A stretch of DNA of 64,000 bases from Sporosarcina pasteurii (GTDB lineage: Bacteria; Bacillota; Bacilli; Bacillales_A; Planococcaceae), in the NCBI RefSeq assembly GCF_041295575.1, contig NZ_CP160452.1:2294001-2358000 (forward strand), read 5' to 3'. Position 1 is the stretch's first letter. Every line of letters begins with the position of its first letter. The notes beneath the pieces are model-generated. The model did no database searches and was not told the DNA's origin. It saw only the letters and a program-made list of their open reading frames with translations. Both the position numbers and the translations under genes were made by a program. Positions 10,480 to 64,000 of the stretch are shown in pieces.

Positions 10480-12028
<1,549 letters not shown>

Positions 12029-52084: not shown

Positions 52085-53188
52085 TTAATTGATTTGCGAA
52101 CGTAAATAAGCATTGATGAACATATCCAATTCGCCATCCATCACAGCACCAACATTCCCTGTTTCTGCGTCCGTTCTATGGTCTTTTACCATTGAATACG
52201 GGTGGAATACGTAGGAACGAATTTGACTTCCCCACCCAATTTCTTTTTGTTCCCCACGAATTTCTCTCAAACGTGCCTCTTCTTCTTCAACTTTCAACTG
52301 ATATAACTTCGATTTCAATAGATTCATCGCACGCTCACGGTTTTTAATCTGAGAACGCTCAGTTTGACACGTTACAACAGTTCCTGTCGGCTCATGGGTA
52401 ATTCGAACAGCTGAATCTGTTACGTTAACGTGCTGACCACCTGCACCACTTGAACGATATGTGTCAATTTTTAGATCTTCTGTACGGATTTCAATATCGA
52501 TATCGCCATCAAATTCAGGCATGACTTCACACGATACGAAAGATGTGTGACGACGACCTGATGAATCGAACGGTGAAATACGTACCAGTCGATGGACACC
52601 TTTTTCTGCCTTCAAATAACCGAATGCATTATGTCCTTTAATTGATAATGTAACTGATTTGACGCCAGCCTCATCGCCCGCTTGATAATCGATTGTTTCA
52701 ACTGAAAACTTATGTTGTTCCGCCCAACGCGTGTACATACGAAGGAGCATGGACGCCCAATCTTGTGACTCTGTACCGCCTGCCCCAGAATGTAGTTCGA
52801 GTACGGCATTATGTTTGTCGAACTCCCCACTGAGCAATAAATGAAGTTCGAAGTCTTCTAACTTTTGCATAAACGCTTTAAGCTCTGCAGCAAGTTCTTC
52901 TTGTAACTCCTCATCAGATTCTTCACGTAATAACTCGAGTGTCATTTCAAGGTTTTCTTGCGTATCCGTTAATTCCGTAAAATCTCCAACAACATCTTTC
53001 AAGGAATTAGACTCGTTAATCACTTTCTGTGCCGCTTCTTGATCATCCCAAAACCCTGGTTCGGTCATGACCTCATCTAACTCTTGGATGCGCGCCTCTT
53101 TATTTTCTAAGTCAAAGAGACCCCCTAAAGTCCACTAATTTCTTAGCTGTAGTGTCAAGCTCGTTCCGTACATCTGATAATTCCATCA
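52085..53188 (-). CDS. prfB: Peptide chain release factor 2, with programmed +1 frameshift
   Basis: RF2 ends translation at UGA and UAA. The gene starts at ATG 53186-53188 behind GGGAGG and reads 24 codons plus CTT (53115-53117). There an in-frame TGA (53112-53114) must be bypassed by a +1 shift, continuing as [20 protein letters not shown]. The slippery CTT-TGA is preceded by the internal Shine-Dalgarno AGGGGG (53121-53126). The GGQ motif is in [20 protein letters not shown], and the RF2 stop-codon region lies in [20 protein letters not shown]. The coding sequence is join(53115-53188, 52085-53113) on the minus strand. About 30 bp separate it from secA. The 250 bp downstream show no clear terminator. 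Confidence 0.96.
53112..53126 (-). promoter_or_regulatory. prfB programmed frameshift signal
   Basis: The minus strand reads AGGGGGTCTCTTTGA: an internal Shine-Dalgarno, spacer, slippery CTT and the RF2-recognised TGA. Low RF2 slows termination and promotes the shift (autoregulation known for this family). Confidence 0.93.
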
Positions 53189-62540: not shown

Positions 62541-62570
62541 AAAAAACACGGTCGCTTTCGCGGACCGTGT
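62541..62570 (-). terminator. Terminator of the flagellin gene
   Basis: Stem ACACGGTC.GC (from 62546) with GC.GACCGTGT (to 62570), GC-rich with a TTTC loop, followed on the minus strand by TTTTTTAG. It lies downstream of exon 3; no terminator lies between the exon-2 stop and exon 3. Confidence 0.88.
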
Positions 62571-62584
62571 CTTGATTATTAAAA

Positions 62585-64000
62585 TTAACGTAGAAGTTGT
62601 AGTACTCCTTGTGGTTGTTGGTTGGCTTGCTTTGCCACTATGTCTTTCGAGCATAGAATAGACTATATCTTCATCCTTACGTTCAATTGTCTTTAAAATG
62701 ATCGATTATAAGGATGCTGGGCACTTCGAATGTTACGACTCGTAACACCCTACGGATTTCATCGTCATAGCATTTACCTTAGACGGTATACCCTAGTCGT
62801 TGAACGTTCCCCACGGTTTCCCGACAGGGGCTTCGCTGCTGATTGTCCAATCTCTTCGTTTTTCAAACCGTCACGTTTACCGTTTCCAGTTCCGCTGTGG
62901 TAGAAGAGCTCTCAGGATGTTCCAGCAATCCACCCAGTAATCATCTATATCATTACTGATATAGACGCCCATGCAATCAAATTATCGCAGAAGTTGAAGT
63001 ACTCCATTCGGAATTTGATTTGATTGAGCCAGCATTGCTTGTGCTGCTTGAGTTAAGATGTTGTTTTTAGTAAACTCCATCATTTCTTTCGCCATCGTGC
63101 GAACATTAGCTTTCACTAATGACTAGACTATATCTTCACCCTTATATACCTTCTGGGTATTGATTAGGGGTCGGGCGCTTCGGATTCATAAGGTACTCAA
63201 TCTTATGTTTCCTACAGGTTTCATCATCATGAGCATTAGCTTTTAGATGGTATACCCTAGTCGTTGGACGTTCTCCACTCTTTCAAGACAGGAGCTTCGC
63301 TGCTGATTGCCCAATCTTTTCTTTTTTGAAACCGTCACGCTTACCGTTTCCAGTTACGTTGTGGCAAGAAAAGTTCTAAGGGGTTTCCAGCAATTCACCC
63401 GATCGTACTCACTAACCGTTACCAGTTAGGACGACTGTGTCTGTTACTACTTATGCAGCAGTTAAGACATAATCAACGTCGCGGATACGTGATTCCGCAG
63501 CTGTTAAGTTTTCTGCAGATGCACCTAGGTTGTTAATTGTGTGTTCAAGACGGTTTTGAACTGCACCAAGGTTTGAACGGTTTTCAGATACAGTGTTAAT
63601 TGCTGCTTGAACAGCCGTTAAGTTCGCTTTTGCCGTAGCGTTTGTCCCATCTAATGTAGTAAGAGCATTTACGCCTAGTGTAGCAGCAGTGTTGTCGCTT
63701 AGTGTAAGCGTAATTGTTTCATCTTCATTTGCACCTACCTGGAAGACTACGTCAGTAGCAGCGTTTAATAAATTCTTTGTATTAAACTGTGTTTGGTTTG
63801 CAATGTCGTCGATTTGTGAAACTAGTTCATCAATCTCAGCTTGGATTTTAGCATTGTCATCGGCTGTAAGTGTTTCGTTACCCGCTTTAGTATAAAGCTC
63901 AGCCATACGTTGTAGCATTGCATGTGTTTCGTTCAATGCACCTTCAGCTGTTTGGATGAGTGAAATACCATCTTGTGCGTTTGTAGAAGCTTGTTCCATA
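62585..64000 (-). CDS. hag: Flagellin (3' part), interrupted by two group I introns
   Basis: The coding sequence is join(63472-64000, 63027-63095, 62585-62629) on the minus strand and runs off the right window edge. Exon 1 encodes the middle and the start of the C-terminal flagellin helix ([20 protein letters not shown], then [20 protein letters not shown] and [10 protein letters not shown]). Exon 2 encodes [23 protein letters not shown]. Exon 3 encodes [14 protein letters not shown] and the stop. Joined, this is a canonical flagellin D0 C-terminus, with correct phase at both junctions. Unspliced at intron 1, translation ends after DVDYVLTAA (stop 63451-63453) and the protein lacks the segment needed for polymerisation and FliS binding. 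Splice sites are placed by protein alignment. Confidence 0.9.
62630..63026 (-). other. Group I self-splicing intron 2, carrying an alternative flagellin C-terminus
   Basis: A 397-nt minus-strand intron closely related to intron 1: CAATCAGCAGCGAAGC (62830-62845), AACGACTAGGGTATACC (62785-62801) and AGATATAGTCTA (62659-62670). P2 is a perfect TCTATATC/GATATAGA hairpin; P9 is CTATG/CATAG. The 3' end (8 nt after P9, terminal G) matches intron 1 in spacing. The first 45 nt encode [14 protein letters not shown] plus TAA (62982-62984), a near copy of the exon-3 peptide. The 5' site after GCT is inferred from protein alignment; I could not find a convincing P1 pairing for it. Confidence 0.82.
63096..63471 (-). 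other. Group I self-splicing intron 1 in flagellin gene
   Basis: A 376-nt intron on the minus strand with no endonuclease ORF. Group I core elements: ATTGCTGGAAACCCC (P3/P4 side), CAATCAGCAGCGAAGC (Q/P4-P6; 63294-63309), AACGACTAGGGTATACC (P7 5' strand; 63249-63265) and AGATATAGTCTA (P7 3' strand; 63124-63135), so GACTA pairs with TAGTC. A P2 hairpin CTAAC/GTTAG and a P9 hairpin CATTAG/CTAATG are visible. The 5' exon ends in U (GUUGAU), which can pair with GUCGUC, with a U-G at the splice site and one mismatch. The intron ends in G. A stop codon lies 21 nt inside. Confidence 0.9.

Follow-up and report, generated by a model that had tools for sequence, protein, structure and literature searches.

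Bacterial protein genes seldom contain group I introns, and the flagellin gene (hag) at the edge of the window, that is, the whole 64,000-nt stretch of Sporosarcina pasteurii DNA analyzed here, raises the question of why an intron that cuts off the last codons of its host gene should itself begin with a second version of those codons. The gene lies on the minus strand, as do all of its parts described below, and the Rfam search shows it to be interrupted by two group I introns. Exon 1 (63472..64000, continuing past the window edge to a start at window coordinate 64173, as located in the whole genome; 702 nt in all, ending in SRIRDVD) is followed by intron 1 (63096..63471; 376 nt; RF00028, 86.6 bits), exon 2 (63027..63095; 69 nt, ending in AMLA), intron 2 (62630..63026; 397 nt, phase 0, last base G), and exon 3 (62585..62629; 45 nt, consisting of 14 codons and TAA). 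The match of intron 2 to RF00028 (92.8 bits, E = 1.5e-22, with a Rfam gathering score of 50) points to a conserved group I core. Its first 45 nt (62982..63026), again 14 codons and TAA, encode a spare flagellin C-terminus. A terminator-like hairpin with a T run (62543..62573; fold −18.4 kcal/mol, z −5.1), absent from the output of a simple terminator scan, lies 3′ of exon 3, so that the transcript should hold both intron 2 and exon 3. On the 5′ side of hag are frames whose translations we read as CsrA-, FliW-, FlgL-, and FlgK-like.

The boundaries of intron 1 (GAT|TATGTC ... CACG|ATGGCG) were placed by comparison and by the reading frame, and those of intron 2 rest on the splice-site helix P1, the last G, and the frame across 89 distinct loci (40 + 43 + 6, the last group including G313). 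The last intron base is G in all 89 related introns at this site, and exon 2 ends in T in 88 of the 89 loci, the exception being a copy with a 1-nt deletion, which is read one base off. With the 3′ splice site at 62630/62629 (G|CAAGCC), the predicted junction after removal of intron 2 is ATGCTGGCT joined to CAAGCCAAC, and RNA keeping intron 2 would run on into CAATCAAAT. The Rfam matches end at 62638 and 63104, each 8 nt short of the 3′ ends that yield an in-frame canonical flagellin. An end of intron 2 at 62638, which would extend the tail without swapping it, was rejected on three grounds: the base preceding CAA is G in 89 of 89 loci, some relatives (e.g., G565) have an in-frame TAG right before CAA, and intron 1 has the identical 8-nt offset. 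Placement of intron 1 at GATTATGT|CTTAAC ... AATG|TTCGC was likewise rejected; it sets the gene out of frame and implies four extra residues, and it is countered both by relatives with an extra T at that point (G028, G058, G035, and G037) and by the intron-1-less form of the gene (DVDMAKE), which leads to GAT|TATG ... CACG|ATGGCG.

As the sequence-only reading of this DNA had claimed, intron 2 begins with a near copy of exon 3: 33 of 45 bases are identical between the two tails, as are 11 of 14 residues, which leaves three residues exchanged. When the exon-3 peptide is compared with every position on both strands of the whole window, the next-best 14-codon match reaches only 6 of 14 residues, and the likeness of the spare is thus not due to chance. 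A flagellin of 271 residues is predicted with both introns removed, and one of 271 residues also with intron 2 kept, which bears out the accompanying claim that a full flagellin is encoded whether the RNA keeps intron 2 or not. The more general statement that splicing is optional for coding stands for intron 2 only, since intron 1 has no spare and, when kept, brings an in-frame stop after YVLTAA, at which the predicted flagellin ends at 240 residues; the gene as a whole is therefore not protected. The exchanged part of the protein is small and would belong to the filament core and the FliS-binding tail.

The distribution of this arrangement was followed with covariance models. A model of the 5′ part of the intron (R1; 118 positions, 40 loci), searched in 261 genomes of the family, finds the spare-bearing intron at 57 places in 55 genomes, all scoring at least 107 bits; 33 of the 68 genomes of the own genus, Sporosarcina, are carriers (35 places), and the other 22 carriers belong to four other genera. 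The next place, at 66 bits, is a second flagellin copy of G022 with intron 1 and without intron 2. Among 398 genomes drawn across the class, 39 carry the spare-bearing intron, representing 13 of 146 genera and nine families by table tally, and all 39 spares read from these class-wide genomes are open. Over all loci the spare is open in 88 of 89 (the first copy in G016 has the 1-nt deletion, and the second copy in the same genome is intact), but most of these loci were gathered with R1, itself a model of spare-bearing introns, so that the fraction should not be taken as an unbiased rate. A less biased count is given by a model of the 3′ part alone (R2; 27 loci), run on the same 398 genomes, which finds 45 places in 43 genomes, 39 of them with a spare; the remainder are two complete introns without a spare (G282 and G292) and four relics that lack the 5′ end (G058, the second place in G292, G343, and the second place in G261). 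A third complete spare-less intron is found in the second flagellin gene of Oceanobacillus luteolus. In the three spare-less introns, all at the same site (L282, L283, and the second copy in L074), the frame ends after QFEQVA, QLLVA, and QFEQIAA, respectively. Named carriers include Sporosarcina psychrophila (L008), whose spare region has the same sequence as that of G020, and, beyond the genus, Oceanobacillus polygoni, O. luteolus, Rossellomorea aquimaris, a Bacillus sp., and a Bacillales metagenome assembly. Decayed flagellin-intron relics were also seen in G059, G050, G054, G047, G037, and G058 (L148, L155, L158, L159, L160, and L147); the tails of several, e.g., G059, G050, and G037, have lost their reading frame or some residues.

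Comparison of the locus across related genomes, a check proposed when the spare was first described, reveals that the arrangement is conserved and that both tails evolve as protein. In 42 phylogenetically independent pairs, from which the copy with the 1-nt deletion is excluded, the spare shows 159.5 synonymous and 84.5 nonsynonymous changes, corresponding to a dN/dS of 0.128 (0.223 in codons 1–5 and 0.049 in codons 9–14), and exon 3 has a dN/dS of 0.047. Differences at the first, second, and third codon positions number 66, 22, and 156 in the spare, and 30, 6, and 120 in exon 3. The pN/pS of the spare is 0.168 in frame versus 1.1 and 4.2 in the other two frames, and the intron core, read as codons for control, has a median pN/pS of 0.88 and a minimum of 0.58 over the 40 overlapping core windows that pass the gap and change filters. 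Judged by these substitution patterns, both tails are under protein-level purifying selection, and the simplest reading is that ribosomes read each tail often enough for selection to act.

It appears probable that intron 2 is a self-splicing group I intron from a mobile family, rendered harmless to its host gene because it brings along a recoded version of that gene's 3′ end. The introns of this family occupy one flagellin site, AMLA|QANQQ, and the P1 arm holds, in recoded form, the 14 codons and the stop found downstream of the insertion site. In the predicted mechanism, a ribosome arriving before splicing would pass the junction, translate the spare, stop within the P1 arm, and release a complete flagellin; its footprint at the spare stop may cover the guide sequence and so delay splicing until the protein is finished. 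The spliced RNA would give the exon-3 tail in an equally complete flagellin. Splicing, the formation of both proteins, the mobility of the family, and harmlessness as the reason for keeping the spare are all features that we infer. As translation across intron 2 would never truncate flagellin, the insertion would be almost free of cost and could persist in a very highly expressed gene, and such a near-zero cost would account for the spread of the intron. The genes with the three spare-less introns persist nonetheless, indicating that harmlessness is not essential and that a spare is not needed at the site.

The relation of the two tails to each other is counted in support of this explanation. 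No sign of gene conversion between the tails is seen, the fraction of same codons, counted over codons for the same residue, being 0.350 within a locus versus 0.339 between loci. The tails differ mainly at residues 2–8. At residue 8 the spare/exon 3 pairs in 89 rows are G/G in 66, S/Q in 13, A/A in 8, Q/Q in 1, and S/S in 1, so that G is never paired with a non-G residue across the tails, and at residue 14 they are R/R in 82, Q/Q in 3, G/G in 2, Q/N in 1, and K/R in 1 of the 89 rows. On the tree (67 rows), host matching draws on only a few independent changes and is not significant, either for residue 8 (3 of 3 supported independent pairs, p = 0.25), for residue 14 (3–4 of 4 pairs, p = 0.125–0.25), or for the two together (4–5 of 5 pairs, p = 0.0625–0.125). 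A second explanation is a regulated switch between isoforms, in which the extent of splicing would depend on conditions and each tail would serve its own role in the filament, in export, or in chaperone binding. Such a switch would agree with the strong purifying selection on two tails that differ mainly at residues 2–8, and a surface-layer gene of Clostridium tetani is reported to yield isoforms by intron splicing (PMC3919590). We nevertheless regard the switch as unlikely and as having less support, given that the tails do not differ by a constant set of residues: residue 5 of the spare can be M, T, S, A, L, I, N, Q, or Y, depending on the species. In addition, one tail alone is viable, as the three spare-less introns demonstrate, and the isoform ratio in C. 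tetani is reported to have varied only modestly under the conditions tried (PMC3919590). Of the two inferences originally drawn from the spare, a harmless intron fits these data better than two purposeful filament proteins, since the differences between the tails are inconsistent between species.

The same nucleotides also belong to the splice-site helix. The 5′ strand of P1 consists of the exon bases GCU and the first intron base C (63026..63029), with a U·G pair at the splice junction, and its 3′ strand is the internal guide GGGC (62967..62970), which sits after the stop of the spare; the spare is thus an arm of P1. The U·G junction pair is present in 88 of the 88 introns read (84 with GCU/GGGC and 4, by compensatory change, with UCU/GGGA), the 89th, outside this count, being the 1-nt-deletion copy that is read one base off. 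In an extension of P1, bases within the early codons of the spare (63012..63020) pair with 62975..62983, where the spare stop codon ends and the following bases lie, and this pairing is matched locus by locus in the family: the mean length of the longest helix is 6.17, versus 5.09 (s.d. 0.12) with partners shuffled and none of 2000 shuffles as high, over 71 distinct combinations and with relatedness ignored. The P1 arm of the window folds at −17.3 kcal/mol (z −2.95). In P2, just behind the P1 arm, 7 of 8 pairs have changes on both sides (0 of 500 shuffles as high; 39 distinct sequences), and 99.4% of its cells are paired versus 30–50% when slid, although the paired share is favored by the choice of the helix from this alignment's own consensus. 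P2 is thus a clear covarying helix, and the ribozyme has accordingly been maintained; selection on both exon 3 and the ribozyme would speak for splicing back to the native end.

These observations bear on two further explanations. In one, the gene truly ends with the spare, intron 2 has ceased to splice, and what is left of exon 3 lies dead in the 3′ untranslated region; the spare alone completes the gene, so that loss of splicing would go unpunished. This alternative, which the sequence-only reading had set against its own proposal, is contradicted by the protein-like evolution of exon 3 (dN/dS 0.047, with the codon-position differences given above) and by the compensatory changes in P2, as well as by the last G kept in 89 of 89 introns and the P1 pairs kept in 88 of 88 read; moreover, it is in decayed relics such as G059, G050, and G037 that the exon-3 tail has lost its frame or residues. 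We consider it very unlikely. In the other, the spare would be conserved only as an RNA arm of P1, without useful translation, as suggested by its folding with the P1 strand (z −2.95) and by the locus-specific complementarity that none of the 2000 shuffles attained. Selection is strongest in codons 9–14 (0.049), however, where synonymous differences are frequent, the other frames lack the pattern, and the three spare-less introns have a much shorter P1 arm, all of which makes a purely structural role highly improbable.

The history of the intron family is consistent with the preferred reading of a mobile intron made harmless by its spare. The intron 2 of G313 encodes a LAGLIDADG endonuclease (L247:1504-2232; PF03161, E = 1.4e-19), the only homing endonuclease found in the 89 introns; none is present in the 397-nt intron 2 of the window, and the remaining 88 introns, of 359–398 nt, are too short for an endonuclease gene. 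In G313, the peptide common to both tails, LPQSVLQLLG, is encoded with 9 of 10 codons different. In the supported tree (77 of 108 rows, large near-identical groups having been thinned; rooted by intron 1 and containing several long branches), the site-2 introns group together in a single clade from which intron 1 is separate (support 100/99). A single clade of the spare-bearing introns was rejected (p-AU 0.0005), the spare-less introns being nested inside. At least three changes of state are thus needed, and the spare has likely been lost in the spare-less introns, repeated gain being a possible alternative. In a larger tree, which carries no support values, the own-genus introns fall into at least three groups mixed with other genera, which suits horizontal movement. 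Phage and plasmid records gave only partial matches to intron 2 (2 plasmids and 80 phage records); coverage of the query stayed below 80% in every case and was about 35% among the matches listed. Tentatively, these features may be combined into a "recoded rescue", in which a homing group I intron would have taken up the end of the gene that it invades, recoded it, and kept this end in agreement with the flagellin of every new host. The same nucleotides would act both as coding sequence and as splice-site helix, so that insertion would be neutral either way and two flagellins with different tails would arise from one gene. An accident of recombination, in which an intron-2-less hag copy was fused to the intron and terminal part of another copy in tandem with it, could be the origin of the first spare; multiple hag copies are present in several own-genus genomes, and decayed relics of hag introns do occur, but as the whole explanation it is scarcely credible, leaving the upkeep across nine families with recoded codons unexplained and sitting poorly with site-2 introns that form one clade (100/99) apart from intron 1. 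Group I matches were also observed elsewhere: a third group I intron (G000:C1:1580720-1581120, minus strand; L007) lies between two frames resembling one ribonucleotide reductase gene, and in several relatives such matches cluster away from hag, e.g., at G067 C1:2026787-2029831 and G040 C1:257156-260522.

The arrangement is worth comparing with known systems. In Geobacillus and thermophilic Bacillus, flagellin genes with group I introns have been reported (Hayakawa and Ishizuka 2009, 2012, cited in PMC3984707), and the cited titles mention no spare end. The single introns of Anoxybacillus calidus and Paucisalibacillus globulus (L060, L048, and L054) end approximately 130 nt before the VLQLL codons, like intron 1 of the window, and no spare is seen in these three introns. 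No paper among the matches listed in the open-licence literature describes a flagellin intron with a spare end. The intron C.te.I1 of C. tetani is likewise located in a surface-protein gene (PMC3919590); it is reported that a complete protein is encoded both by the unspliced RNA and, in a distinct form, by the spliced RNA, as is predicted here from the sequence, and that the unspliced RNA makes up approximately 75–95% of the mRNAs. It is, however, a group II intron with four alternative downstream exons giving distinct isoforms in one organism, whereas intron 2 of hag is a group I intron with one downstream exon, nearly the same tail, and a presence in many genera. Mobile ORF elements of Allomyces and Glomus mitochondria are reported to bring replacement C-termini to their host genes (PMC3630166). 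Like the intron of G313, they combine a homing endonuclease with a duplicated gene end in which synonymous differences are numerous; as in those elements, the duplicate C-terminus here is recoded and in frame with the upstream hag. In Glomus atp6 and cox2, according to that paper, the native end is no longer expressed or translated. In hag, both ends are under selection and the ribozyme is kept. The combination of a group I intron, a P1 arm that is a recoded spare, its matching to the true end, and its occurrence in many genera is absent from the open-licence literature matches listed.

An intron that substitutes for the exon that it cuts off would be one answer to the problem of survival in highly translated genes, readable here in many species. 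As the two tails differ in mass, optional splicing in bacteria could be tested by ordinary proteomics. The arrangement also suggests a route by which such introns may escape annotation: without intron 1, the gene would look complete when unspliced. Elsewhere in the window, a T-box leader is found at 10498-10728 on the plus strand (121 bits), and a release-factor-2-like frame at 52085-53068 on the minus strand begins at an ATG. The latter may, as we presume, have the usual programmed frameshift upstream.
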